DNA of 41,970 bases from a virus. Below, one piece after another: positions 4,682-41,719 of the stretch (positions are counted from its first letter, which is position 1; each line of letters opens with the position of its first letter). Both the position numbers and the translations under genes were made by a program. Location: positions 1 through 41,970 of IMG/VR virus record IMGVR_UViG_3300044302_005479. One strand, given 5' to 3'. The notes beneath the pieces were generated by a model. That model worked only from the letters and a program-made list of their open reading frames with translations. It was not told the DNA's origin and ran no database searches.

Positions 4682-4920
4682 ACATGAGAGAAACTTTATT
4701 GAAAGCTTTGAGATCACATGCTCAAGGTGAAATTGAGATGCACAAAGCAAATATAGAAGTTTATCTGGCCAACCCAGTTGGTATTGGTGAACATCCTGAT
4801 ATAACCCATGCCATGCAGGAAGAACTAGACAAAATTGCTAGGTGGGATGATCAAATCGCAATGATCAACAAGTATTTCAGACTATATAGGCCAGGTAAAG
4901 AACTAGACAATCTTGATTGA
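4678..4920 (+). CDS. Conserved cyanophage small protein
   Basis: An 80-aa helical protein. The core (RETLLKALRSHAQGEIEMHK, then NIEVYLANPVGIGEHPDI, then a helix ending INKYF) matches, from memory, a small protein conserved in many cyanomyoviruses; its function is unknown. A second in-frame Met three residues in is an equally good start. It overlaps both neighbours. Confidence 0.65.
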   Translation: MNMRETLLKALRSHAQGEIEMHKANIEVYLANPVGIGEHPDITHAMQEELDKIARWDDQIAMINKYFRLYRPGKELDNLD

Positions 4921-7186: not shown

Positions 7187-8272
7187 TCAACCTATTGCCG
7201 GAGCAATAAGCGCAACTGCAGATGTCTCAACAGCTGCCAAATCAAGTGGGAAGTTGTGAGCATTACGCTCGTGCATTACTTCCATACCAAGATTTGCCCT
7301 ATTGAGCACGTCTGCCCATGTAGGTACAATCTTGCCGGAGGAATCGACAATTGACTGATTAAAATTGAATCCATTCAAGTTGAAGGCCATGGTACATATG
7401 CCCATTGAGGTAAGCCAGATGCAAACCACAGGAAAAACAGCAAGAAAGAAATGAAGACTACGAGAGTTATTAAAGGAGGCGTATTGGAAGATAAGACGTC
7501 CGAAGTAGCCATGAGCCGCGACGATGTTGTACGTTTCTTCTTCTTGTCCAAATTTGTAGCCATAATTCTGTGATTCTGATTCTGTAGTTTCTCTAATAAG
7601 TGAAGATGTAACCAATGAACCGTGCATAGCACTAAACAGGGCACCGCCAAACATACCCGCCACACCTGCCATGTGGAATGGATGCATGAGGATATTATGT
7701 TCCGCCTGAAAGACAAACATAAAGTTGAACGTGCCTGAAATGCCCAAAGGCATACCGTCACTGAATGATCCTTGTCCGAAAGGATAGACGAGGAATACAG
7801 CAAACGCGGCAGATACTGGTGCAGAGTAGGCAACACAGATCCAAGGACGCATCCCTAGTCGATAGCTAAGTTCCCATTGTCGTCCCATGTAAGCAGAGAT
7901 ACCAATGAGGAAGTGGAAAATGACGAGCTGGTATGGTCCTCCGTTGTAGAGCCACTCATCAATCGTTGCAGCTTCCCATATTGGGTAAAAATGCAATCCG
8001 ATGGCGTTTGAGCTGGGAACAACGGCTCCTGAGATGATGTTGTTTCCATATAAAAAAGAACCTGCTACAGGTTCGCGAATTCCGTCGATGTCAACGGGTG
8101 GAGCAGCAATAAATGCCACGATGAAACAAGTTGCAGCCGCCAGTAGGCATGGAATCATAAGGACTCCGAACCAACCTACGTAGATACGGTTGTTTGTGGA
8201 AGTAACCCACTCACAAAACTCGTCCCATCCTTGCAATAAACTGCTACTTCTCGTTAAAGAAGTTGTTGTCAT
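7187..8272 (-). CDS. psbA: Photosystem II D1 protein
   Basis: A 361-aa complete D1 protein. D1 binds P680, pheophytin, QB and the Mn4CaO5 cluster in the thylakoid membrane; phage copies replace rapidly damaged host D1 during infection. Numbering is +2 relative to Synechocystis. Visible ligands are D172, E191, H192, H200 (P680), H334, E335, D344 and the processing site after A346, all conserved. Residue 130 (here 132) is Gln, as in D1:1 forms. The C-terminal extension after A346 is 15 residues. It has its own promoter (TATAAT at 8368-8373) and terminator. Codon use looks more GC-rich than its neighbours, as expected for a gene acquired from a cyanobacterium. Confidence 0.98.
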
Positions 8273-18916: not shown

Positions 18917-21505
18917 GTGCCAATCGCCTCACCAGATCCGAAAAAACCTGATAGCAATTTAAAGCCAGGAGAGATCAATCTTGACCTAATTCCGGCCCAT
19001 TGGCCATTGACACCTCTACGGGATAAAAGAGCTTATATAGCTGGTTGGACATCCCATCCTTACTCCGTAGAACGCATAAAACAAGAACTAGAAGCCGGAA
19101 ATGCAACTGGTGTAGGTCTAATTAGCGGTCAATGCTCTAATGAAGGTGGTCTTATTTGGGTTGATATAGATGGACCTGAAGCTATACCTGAACTTGAAGA
19201 ATTAGCAGGTGCCCCATTAGATGCGATCTTCCCTCCAACATTAACAATTTCATCTGGAAAACCAGGACGTCAGAGGATGCTTTATAGCATTCCATCTTCA
19301 AAGATTCGGTTATTACCAGATAAAGCAACTATTAAGATTGGTATTCCATCGTTTGAAATACTCTTCCGCTCTCGTCAGGGAGCAATCATGGGCAGCCATC
19401 CTGATACAGAAGGTTATCACACAACTGTTAATGGTGGATTTGAACATGCAAAGAATCCTCCTGAGTTACCAGAATGGCTATATCAAGCAATTGCTAAAAA
19501 ATTTCCAACTAATAAATATCGCAAAACTCCCTCAACTGGGGTTGTTACTCAACAAGTTAATATCAGCTATGAAGATGGCTCTGAATATCAGAAGGAAGAT
19601 CTATTAGCTGAAACTAAGGTTTATCTAGATCACCTAAAACCAGAACGAGCAATTGACTATGAGGAATGGATAACTGTTGGAGCTGCTCTACATCAAATTG
19701 ATGAAACCTTATTAGCAGAATGGGTCGAATGGTCTTCTGAGGCACCTAACTTTGAAGTTGGTATCTGTGAACAGAAATGGGAAACTTTTGAGAGAGTACC
19801 TGGTGGGCCAACTCCTGAAGGTGGAGCAGGTCTTCACACACTCAGAGCAAAAGCAAAAGAAGATGGCTTCCTAGAATTTGGTGGCTTTGTAGTTGAATCC
19901 TCTCCTGAAGTACTAGCTCAAAGAGCTAAATCACTATTCAAAGGAAACAAAGAACTACAAAAAGATGCTATCCCAAATATAAATAAAGCATTAAAAGAAA
20001 TAATAGGGAAACCAGATAAGAAGACTAAAGAAGAAGTAGAGCAAAAGATTAAAGGTAAAAGTCGTCCAAAAACTCCACCTGCATCTGAACTAGCAGACTC
20101 CGTTACAGGCATGGTAATTCAATGTGGCTGGCGATATGACCCTAAATTTGACACCTTTATGTTCTATCAAAGCACTAAAGGAACATGGAGAAGAGAAGAG
20201 TATCGCCAAGAATACAAACACTTCGTACAAGACCTCTTTTTAAGGGAAAATATTCCTACGCCAGGTGGTTTCACATCTCATTTACTCAGTGACGTAGTTA
20301 ATCTGACACAGGCATATATCACCCACACCTACTGGGATGACGATGATGATCGTCTAGCTTTCCGTAATGGTGTATTGGAAATTAGTACTGGAGAATTTCT
20401 AGAACATGATCGTGAACATTATCTAACTTGGGGATTAGATTTTGACTATGATCCAAATGCAACCCCAGGTCCCATCATCGACTGGTTGAAGCGTACACAG
20501 TTCGGAGATGAAGAAAGGGTACAAGTTCTACGAGCTTGGTTGAAAGCGTGTCTGATCGGTCAGGGGCATGAACTACAACGCTTCTTAGAAGTAATTGGTC
20601 CAGGTGGTAGAGGAAAATCAACCTTCGCCAATTTATGCTGTGCACTCGTTGGAAATGGAAACTATGCCAGTACAACATTGAATCAGCTAGAGCAAAGTCG
20701 TTTCGAAGTTGCATCCATTAAAGGTAAGCGTCTAACTCTAATTAATGACTCAGAACGTTATGGAGGATCAGCTCAAATTTTCAAAGCGCTGACTGGAGGA
20801 GACAATCTAAGATTTGAAGAAAAAAATAAAAATGTTGGTGAGCCTTTCGTCTATACAGGCATGGTTATGGTCTGCGCCAATGAACCAATCCAGACAACCG
20901 ACAACACCTCTGGCCTGACACGTCGTCGCCTAACTGTCGAGTTTAACCGGTCATTATGGGATAAAAATTCTGAAGCCAAAGAGATGATCAAACTCGAGAA
21001 TGGTATCGTAAAAGGCTTATGGAAGAACTATTTACCAGGATTAGTTAACTGGGTTTTGGAAATGAAGACCGAATCGATGCGCGAATATCTCCTTGATACC
21101 TACGAAAAAGTACATTCATTAAAGAGAGTTCGTAATGAGATTCTTCTCAATAGCAACAACCTAATTGAATGGCTCCAGTCAGAAGTAATTCACAATCCTG
21201 ACGTCGTTTCTTCAGTTGGTAAAAAAATACCAGCTGCGAAAGATGCTAAGGAGCGTTATTGCAATAGTAGCTATCATCTCTATGCAAGTTATTGCTCTTA
21301 CTGTGAAGACACAGGATCAAAACCGGTAGGTCAAAAACGTTTTATTGCACTACTGCTCGATTGCTGTAAGAACCAATTAGATATGAAAAATATAAGCCAT
21401 TTCACCAAGCAGGGACGACCTTTTATCAAAGGTTTAGCCGTCAGAAAGTCAGATCAGAAACATGATGATGCCCCTACCATACTGCCAGAAAATAAATTGG
21501 CATAA
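18917..21505 (+). CDS. PrimPol / SF3 helicase replication protein
   Basis: An 862-aa primase-helicase. Residues about 20-195 are an archaeo-eukaryotic primase (PrimPol) domain with WVDIDG (D83, D85) and SSGKPGRQRMLY where the usual motif-II His is absent. About 230-310 resembles the PriCT-2 linker (YEEWITVGAALHQI...WETFE). The C-terminal half is a D5_N/SF3 helicase with Walker A GPGGRGKST (561-569, K567), a LTLINDSE segment and an arginine-finger region (GLTRRRLTVEF). It should prime and unwind DNA at the fork with the PolA polymerase. GTG start. This differs from T7 (TOPRIM-DnaB). Confidence 0.9.
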   Translation: MPIASPDPKKPDSNLKPGEINLDLIPAHWPLTPLRDKRAYIAGWTSHPYSVERIKQELEAGNATGVGLISGQCSNEGGLIWVDIDGPEAIPELEELAGAPLDAIFPPTLTISSGKPGRQRMLYSIPSSKIRLLPDKATIKIGIPSFEILFRSRQGAIMGSHPDTEGYHTTVNGGFEHAKNPPELPEWLYQAIAKKFPTNKYRKTPSTGVVTQQVNISYEDGSEYQKEDLLAETKVYLDHLKPERAIDYEEWITVGAALHQIDETLLAEWVEWSSEAPNFEVGICEQKWETFERVPGGPTPEGGAGLHTLRAKAKEDGFLEFGGFVVESSPEVLAQRAKSLFKGNKELQKDAIPNINKALKEIIGKPDKKTKEEVEQKIKGKSRPKTPPASELADSVTGMVIQCGWRYDPKFDTFMFYQSTKGTWRREEYRQEYKHFVQDLFLRENIPTPGGFTSHLLSDVVNLTQAYITHTYWDDDDDRLAFRNGVLEISTGEFLEHDREHYLTWGLDFDYDPNATPGPIIDWLKRTQFGDEERVQVLRAWLKACLIGQGHELQRFLEVIGPGGRGKSTFANLCCALVGNGNYASTTLNQLEQSRFEVASIKGKRLTLINDSERYGGSAQIFKALTGGDNLRFEEKNKNVGEPFVYTGMVMVCANEPIQTTDNTSGLTRRRLTVEFNRSLWDKNSEAKEMIKLENGIVKGLWKNYLPGLVNWVLEMKTESMREYLLDTYEKVHSLKRVRNEILLNSNNLIEWLQSEVIHNPDVVSSVGKKIPAAKDAKERYCNSSYHLYASYCSYCEDTGSKPVGQKRFIALLLDCCKNQLDMKNISHFTKQGRPFIKGLAVRKSDQKHDDAPTILPENKLA

Positions 21506-40473: not shown

Positions 40474-40725
40474 TTACAACACTTGAACAACTTCATAAAT
40501 TTCTGGAAAAATATTCTGTATATGTCTTTCAATTCCCATTTTTAATGTTTGAGAACTCATAGCGCATGTAGAGCATGCTCCATGTAGACGAACTTTAACA
40601 ACAGGGCCTTGTTCTACATAATCAATCTCTACAAATTCAAGATATCCACCATCTGCTTCAATATATGGACGAATATCATTGAGGGCTTCATTAACTTTTA
40701 CTGGATCTAATTCTTTTAGTTCCAT
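40474..40725 (-). CDS. nfu: NifU C-terminal-like Fe-S scaffold (Nfu)
   Basis: An 83-aa complete Nfu domain: ALNDIRPYIEADGGYLEFVE, then VRLHGACSTCAMSSQTLKMG with C51 and C54. Nfu proteins bind a [4Fe-4S] cluster between two subunits and pass it to targets such as photosystem I. The start overlaps the end of the DUF1257 gene by ten bases, so the two are co-translated. It is close to plastid and cyanobacterial forms, and acquisition from the host is likely. Confidence 0.9.
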   Translation of the reverse strand: MELKELDPVKVNEALNDIRPYIEADGGYLEFVEIDYVEQGPVVKVRLHGACSTCAMSSQTLKMGIERHIQNIFPEIYEVVQVL

Positions 40726-41114
40726 CTTCCTACGACTAATTCAATAGCACCATCTGATGTAAAGTGCTCTTCTTCTACGCTATATCCCATCTCTTTAGTA
40801 GATTGTAATATATTTTTAAAAGCATAATGTTGATGTAATTTCTGTAAAAATCTCTCTACCGGTAAATTTCTATCCCATGATTGTAAATCGGTAACTAATT
40901 CATAAGATTCTGTTTCTTCATTCCATCGGAATCCAATGTCATTACCAGCAGTGATATGTACCTCAACATTAGGATGTCCTTTAGCATGCTCTTTATCGCC
41001 TACAACCATAACGGATTGCTCATGCTGAGCATCGTCTAACCCAATATCAATTAGAGCTTCTACTAACTGATCTGGGTCTTTAAATTTAGTTTTGATTGTG
41101 CTGAAATGCGACAT
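40716..41114 (-). CDS. ycf35: DUF1257 protein (Ycf35)
   Basis: A 132-aa protein. SHFSTIKTKFKDPDQLVEAL, GNDIGFRWNEETESYELVTD and LQSWDRN...FLQKLHQHYAF match Ycf35/DUF1257 of cyanobacteria and red plastids. No proven function; it is often coded beside DUF2997 and ferredoxin genes. Here it is between DUF2997 and Nfu, overlapping both. Confidence 0.9.
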   Translation of the reverse strand: MSHFSTIKTKFKDPDQLVEALIDIGLDDAQHEQSVMVVGDKEHAKGHPNVEVHITAGNDIGFRWNEETESYELVTDLQSWDRNLPVERFLQKLHQHYAFKNILQSTKEMGYSVEEEHFTSDGAIELVVGRWN

Positions 41115-41286
41115 TTTCTACCTCTTGTTTGTAATAGTCTGATGTATGGATCCTGTGATGTAAATTACCTAATTTTTCTTCTAACTCTTCTGTTATTTTC
41201 TCACAGGAAGAACCATTTATTCCTTCAACTGTTTCTTCAACAGTTCCATCTGGATTACATAGGATAGTTAGTCTGTTCTTTAGAAT
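41086..41286 (-). CDS. DUF2997 protein with no standard start codon
   Basis: An open frame of 66 codons: ILCNPDGTVEETVEGINGSS, CEKITEELEEKLGN, RIHTSDYYKQ. This is the DUF2997 pattern (IxPDGxVeExVeGxxGxxC). It ends within the DUF1257 start and begins within the 3' end of the upstream gene. No ATG, GTG or TTG is present upstream of the domain; ATT at 41284-41286 or ATC at 41263-41265 are candidates. Frameshift from the upstream gene is an alternative. Five-prime end uncertain. Confidence 0.6.
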   Translation of the reverse strand: MLKNRLTILCNPDGTVEETVEGINGSSCEKITEELEEKLGNLHHRIHTSDYYKQEVENVAFQHNQN

Positions 41287-41719
41287 TAGGACTTTCAGCT
41301 TTAATTACTAATGGAGCTTGCTCAATTCTAATAGTTTGTACAGCAGCATTAGCAGCAGCTTTTTGAATCATTGCTTCCATATCTTTCTTACTAACTTGGC
41401 CATTATTATCACCATTCATTTTCATCGTGCCATCACCCTTTTTAGAGGCTGTAGCAATTCCAAAACTGGCCAAAACCCCTGTGAACACTGAAGCTATAAA
41501 AGTTGGATCTATTTTTTGTTGAGGGATTCCTGGGATGGAAACGTAGTTTAAAGTTAAGATCGCACCGGACCACCCAAGTACTACGATTCTCACGCCTGTA
41601 GATATGATTGCAGCTTGTTCTTCTTGATCTGGAAGAAGAGCATCTTTCATTTTTCCAAGAACACTTTTCTTCTTAGAACTATCCTCTTTTATAGGATCTT
41701 TAGTTACATTCTCAGGCAT
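41255..41719 (-). CDS. Two-helix membrane protein, possible holin
   Basis: A 154-aa protein with charged N-terminus, two hydrophobic segments (about 38-61, GVRIVVLGWSGAILTLNYVS; about 73-95, FIASVFTGVLASFGIATASK) and a polar tail. The topology fits a class II holin or a small membrane scaffold; the core seems conserved in cyanophages, as I recall. First gene of the minus-strand run leading to DUF2997 and Nfu. Confidence 0.55.
   Translation of the reverse strand: MPENVTKDPIKEDSSKKKSVLGKMKDALLPDQEEQAAIISTGVRIVVLGWSGAILTLNYVSIPGIPQQKIDPTFIASVFTGVLASFGIATASKKGDGTMKMNGDNNGQVSKKDMEAMIQKAAANAAVQTIRIEQAPLVIKAESPNSKEQTNYPM

Follow-up and report, generated by a model that had tools for sequence, protein, structure and literature searches.

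The DUF2997 frame in the phage sequence IMGVR_UViG_3300044302_005479, all 41,970 nucleotides of which were analysed here (the window), is a truncated remnant, and comparison with a nearly identical contig indicates that it is very probably an ordinary small gene that has lost 37 bases containing its ATG and first 12 codons. The first-pass annotation had taken it for an unusual gene lacking a start codon, a view that gives way before contig L002 (IMGVR_UViG_3300044304_005037, 6,585 bases), a near-identical phage sequence that carries a canonical ATG and from which the window differs here by the missing 37 bases. The genes concerned, DUF6450 - DUF2997 - DUF1257 (Ycf35) - Nfu, are a normal cyanophage auxiliary gene run.

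Gene content of the run

The features of the locus, in the order of the run, are the following.

41255..41719, minus strand: DUF6450 (phrog_2714) two-helix membrane protein gene, 154 aa, heading the run (PF20048 E 3.4e-32; phrog_2714 E 1.4e-50)
41086..41304, minus strand: stop-to-stop DUF2997 frame, first annotated as a start-less gene
41250..41252, no strand: putative deletion point, from exact alignment to L002; 37 bases missing in the window
41086..41250, minus strand: DUF2997 remnant, codons 13-66 and stop of a 66-codon gene (PF11211 E 1.6e-15)
40716..41114, minus strand: DUF1257 (Ycf35-like) gene, 132 aa, ATG start (PF06868 E 5e-25)
40474..40725, minus strand: NifU-like (Nfu) gene, 83 aa, ATG start (PF01106 E 9.8e-23; phrog_29737 E 7e-32)

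The DUF2997, DUF1257 and NifU families that had been proposed without a database search were all matched in Pfam: DUF2997 at 57.1 bits against a gathering score of 24.1, DUF1257 at 88.2 bits against 22.2 (profile positions 1-103 of 103) and Nfu at 80.5 bits against 27 (positions 1-67 of 67). These scores are far above chance, so the family assignments of the three genes are settled. Their overlapping arrangement on the minus strand (41304/41250-41086, 41114-40716 and 40725-40474) is likewise confirmed: the DUF1257 start (41114), which has a GAGG 6 bases ahead of its ATG, overlaps the 3' end of the DUF2997 frame, and the DUF1257 stop in turn overlaps the ATG of Nfu. The Nfu translation contains a CxxC pair (ACSTCA), which in the NifU-like C-terminal domain is the cluster-binding pair. 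Upstream, as first annotated, the DUF2997 frame does extend into the membrane gene at its 3' end; that gene is DUF6450 / phrog_2714, and its stop lies 3-4 bases ahead of the deletion point.

A 37-base difference from a near-identical contig

Searched against IMG/VR, the DUF1257 protein of the window returned 58 loci, a single one of which, L002, encodes the identical protein. Window and L002 share all 719 bases on one side of the break. On the other side they agree at 4,898 of 4,903 aligned bases, with the nearest mismatch ~2.1 kb from the break; besides the deletion they have six single-base differences in total (five in the alignment and one just past its end). The 37 bases of L002 that are absent from the window comprise the DUF2997 ATG and codons 1-12; no other deletion length fits the comparison, and the breakpoint falls at 41251/41252 or 41250/41251, with one base of ambiguity from shared sequence. 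In L002 the open reading frame (1646-1846) begins with an ATG at 1646, spans 66 codons and matches PF11211 in full. We place the event in the window, as a deletion, because L002 carries the intact copy and because the motif at the start of the domain is conserved in more distant homologues; a counterpoint is that the intact version of this same phage is seen in one contig, L002.

The first annotation was correct that no ATG, GTG or TTG precedes the core of the frame when it is read codon by codon (stop to stop, 41304-41086), but described the conserved core as intact, whereas the window frame matches PF11211 only from position 6 (6-47, compared with 1-47 and 64.0 bits in L002). A complete domain, with profile positions 1-47 and a start codon, is thus not what the window copy holds, and the first-strand motif I-K-F-x-I-x-Q is absent from its frame. 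What appears in its place as an N-terminus, LKLKVLILKNRLTILCNP, is DNA of the membrane gene in a different reading frame; the stretch 41304-41251 is mostly DUF6450-gene DNA read in this other frame. AlphaFold2 predicts for the L002 protein a strand at residues 5-10, a second strand at 16-21 and a helix at 27-39 (mean pLDDT 76), and on this model the deletion takes out the first predicted strand, residues 5-10 being wholly within the lost part.

The start codon in DUF2997 homologues

Across 49 distinct stop-to-stop DUF2997 frames from virus loci, those of Prochlorococcus phages P-SSM2 and P-SSM7 included, an IKFxIxQDG-type motif is present in 47, and each of these 47 has a Met at most 16 residues ahead of it. 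The two frames without the motif are that of the window and that of the distant locus L059, which has its own ATG, leaving the window as the only copy broken in this manner. By a second count, a start codon stands ahead of the first DG in 64 of 69 rows; the remaining five are L001 and the window (one sequence) together with L049, L051 and L052, in which three an ATG follows directly. The picture is similar in cyanobacteria, where DUF2997 was found in 78 of the best 80 (of 358) loci, with a Met near the start in 76, a TTG in one and a GTG in one; in the other two of the 80, DUF1257 lies at the edge of the retrieved stretch. Since nearly all virus and host homologues have one, a start codon is a normal, conserved part of the DUF2997 gene, and the window is the single exception.

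Translation at the locus

It had been suggested that DUF2997 might be translated from ATT or ATC, or by frameshift from the membrane gene. The frame is indeed open back to 41304, and a non-standard start (ATT 41286, ATC 41265 or CTG 41298) or a frameshift fusion with the membrane protein could in principle use it, but we consider either highly improbable. L002 has identical DNA upstream, including the bases around the ATT, and uses a normal ATG further down, so that nothing marks the ATT as a start site; the resulting N-terminus would moreover stand in place of the conserved first strand, and by eye no ribosome-binding-like sequence is present. A non-canonical start was rejected on the L002 ATG together with the Met ahead of the motif in all motif-bearing frames, and a fusion with DUF6450 on the lack, again by eye, of a classical slippery heptamer in the overlap. 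Close homologues share neither the missing start nor a recoding signal.

An ATG at 41249, after the DUF6450 stop, opens a 10-codon frame in a different register. Because this is the ATG that ribosomes re-initiating after the DUF6450 stop would reach next, DUF2997 would probably not be made. DUF1257 has a ribosome-binding-like GAGG of its own and the ATG of Nfu overlaps the DUF1257 stop, so both should still be produced without DUF2997.

Origin of the deletion

The deletion may have arisen in one of two ways, which are sub-cases of the same reading. It could quite conceivably be a library or assembly error, in which case the real phage of the sample would have an intact gene like that of L002. 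The 30-base junction of the window occurs in no other viral contig in IMG/VR, while a 38-mer of the intact copy is found in L002 only; the 54 remaining codons are unchanged between window and L002, without the decay that might be expected of a dead gene; and no other gene in the window is frame-broken relative to G001, which makes an isolated break odd. On the other hand, misassembly driven by overlaps would not usually give a join that shares one base, the six further single-base differences indicate that window and L002 are not one assembly copied, and there is no notable hairpin at the site (z 0.35). A hairpin-driven deletion was discarded on the same ground, since the intact segment, folded as single-stranded DNA, does no better than shuffles.

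G001, the record of L071, is collinear with the window, and 80 of its frames match window frames. None of these 80 reveals a frame-split window gene, and a general assembly error was rejected accordingly. Two double matches occurred, one G001 frame hitting two window frames and two G001 frames hitting a single window frame; both involve the same long, repeat-rich tail-fibre-like genes.

Alternatively, and with equal likelihood, the deletion could be a recent natural variant, in a phage strain whose DUF2997 is dead and that does without the protein. The six single-base differences from L002 are consistent with real strain differences, and sister contigs L069-L073 are without the whole DUF2997-DUF1257 pair, so that the pair is dispensable in this group of phages. 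The variant is seen in one contig only, however, and elsewhere in virus loci DUF1257 is always accompanied by a DUF2997 frame where the neighbouring DNA is present, so that a DUF1257 on its own would be unusual.

Phage neighbourhoods of the pair and of Nfu

The DUF2997-DUF1257 pair is common in cyanophages, while Nfu directly behind it is rare: the contiguous run was found in L002 and L003, 2 of the 58 DUF1257 loci, a count that includes loci with short flanks (L016 has 261 bases downstream only). In L007 and L030, Nfu lies a few kilobases from the pair. Of 85 Nfu loci, 80 were kept, and among these the pair is present in L068 only, which is L002 again.

Sister contigs L069-L073 resemble the window in having DUF6450 and then Nfu, the latter 86-90% identical, within flanks of about 73-84% DNA identity, but they have neither DUF2997 nor DUF1257 in between; nor does G001 have a counterpart of the DUF2997-DUF1257 stretch. 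With similar flanks and no pair in the sisters, the pair was probably either inserted between DUF6450 and Nfu in the lineage of the window and L002 or lost from the other lineages. Where sister phages have no pair, the Nfu frame is ~30 codons longer upstream of its conserved part and overlaps the DUF6450 stop (L069:1938-2031, L071:2908-3001); it may start at the GTG within ATGTGA. The window Nfu is without this extension. DUF6450 is also near Nfu in all six of the loci L142-L147, and in P-SSM2 the two are <2 kb apart (178.7-180.8 kb). The association of DUF6450 with Nfu seems to predate the insertion of the pair.

L003 (IMGVR_UViG_3300032011_002677) has DUF2997 - DUF1257 - Nfu contiguous and in the same order and direction as the window, but its genes have other affinities: the closest DUF2997 copies are those of L020/L011 (85.5%) and the closest Nfu is that of L122 (85%), compared with L016/L018 and L061-L065 (56-57%) for the intact L002 DUF2997 and L069-L072 (90%) for the L002 Nfu. 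We also built a tree of DUF1257 from 91 rows, with hosts thinned to every second distinct sequence and duplicates, short rows, L001, L060, L068, L058 and the window left out (the window being represented by L002, which has the same protein). Phage and host proteins separate, 51 rows from 40, with support of 100/93; L003 groups with L011 (99/87), and L002 is a long branch (1.38) of unsure placement near the phage-host split. The different nearest relatives of the L002 and L003 genes suggest that the pair was joined to Nfu twice independently, once in the window/L002 lineage and once in L003. This is the simplest reading, although the long L002 branch calls for caution.

Public phage genomes

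In public phage records, tblastn found DUF1257 in 15 and Nfu in 20. With P-SSM2 and P-SSM7 each counted once, DUF1257 occurs in 12 phages or single-cell samples, and 10 of the 12 also have Nfu, on the same record in eight and on another record of the same cell in two (AG-345-D19 and AG-345-E02). The same search gave no Nfu match in the DUF1257-bearing P-SSM7 or in the 2.3-kb AG-345-E08 fragment; P-TIM68 has Nfu without DUF1257. This co-occurrence is a lead and not a test, because the phages in question are either relatives or from a single sample. Six of the Nfu records carry the names of Listeria or Staphylococcus phages (OR849012, OR846842, OR848146, OR846744, OR849983 and OR844991; 42-43% identity) and are kept outside the set; they may represent host DNA in phage records.

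The pair is intact and overlapping in both P-SSM2 (PSSM2_178/179) and P-SSM7 (PSSM7_222/223). Like the window, P-SSM2 also has nifU, but some 33 kb separate it from the pair (147.5 and 180.5 kb). These two phages are Kyanoviridae, whereas the primase of the window is nearest, at 34%, to that of Synechococcus phage S-EIVl. Among 50,697 public phage records, this 862-aa primase-like protein (18917-21505) has a single match with coverage of 80% or more, in S-EIVl; the cyanophage group to which the window belongs is poorly sampled. The window also encodes a full-length, 361-aa psbA-like (D1) gene at 7187-8272 on the minus strand, identified by eye, which fits a phage of cyanobacteria.

The cyanobacterial cluster and a possible role of the pair

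In cyanobacteria, DUF2997, ycf35 (DUF1257) and fed7 form a ferredoxin gene cluster, termed 'cluster g' in a section of PMC4284462. Consistent with this, a ferredoxin frame adjoins DUF1257 in 79 of the best 80 (of 358) cyanobacterial loci, which supports the plausible association of the phage operon with Fe-S metabolism or photosynthesis put forward in the first annotation. The cluster resembles the window in that DUF2997 lies beside DUF1257 and is followed by the gene of an Fe-S protein, but differs in that this protein is the ferredoxin Fed7, whereas in the window it is Nfu, a cluster carrier. The window run includes no ferredoxin, its third gene being Nfu, and no ferredoxin frame of the type CxGCxYC...DTCP was found in virus loci with DUF1257.

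Portions of further papers describe fed7 and ycf35 as both SigD-dependent in Synechocystis (PMC8875361), place Ycf35 among the proteins up-regulated in copper and iron deduction groups (PMC8141849), link retention of plastid ycf35 to habitat (PMC5940233) and, in 2008, note nifU-like genes in marine viral sequences (PMC2186209). The available portions of these four papers and of PMC4284462 assign neither Ycf35 nor DUF2997 a molecular function, and a literature search found nothing treating ycf35 together with cyanophage. Structure comparison was similarly uninformative: the predicted DUF1257 fold (mean pLDDT 83.5) had no Foldseek match at E <= 0.001 and a best VIA-align Z of 5.4, and a sequence search of solved structures gave no match for DUF1257 and one chance-level match for DUF2997 (E 0.08).

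The start-less gene as such is without importance, being a broken copy in one contig. Of more interest is the neighbourhood of two orphan, photosynthesis-linked families, DUF2997 and DUF1257/Ycf35, with a ferredoxin beside the pair in cyanobacteria and Nfu behind it in two phage lineages, which points to a common Fe-S role. The cyanophage genes themselves are known; their arrangement is, as far as the literature searches reach, new, and hints at such a role for Ycf35 and DUF2997. From gene neighbourhood it is possible, and we offer this tentatively, that the two proteins work jointly alongside an Fe-S protein (Fed7 in cyanobacteria, Nfu in the window phage) and so maintain the supply to an Fe-S step tied to photosynthesis while the phage infects its host. 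A bolder and rather unlikely proposal is that DUF2997-Ycf35 is a two-protein device that passes on or inserts Fe-S clusters with a dedicated partner (Fed7 in cyanobacteria, Nfu in phages), the pair having been joined to Nfu at least twice independently. If this were true, it would become testable what Ycf35, an orphan plastid protein, does.
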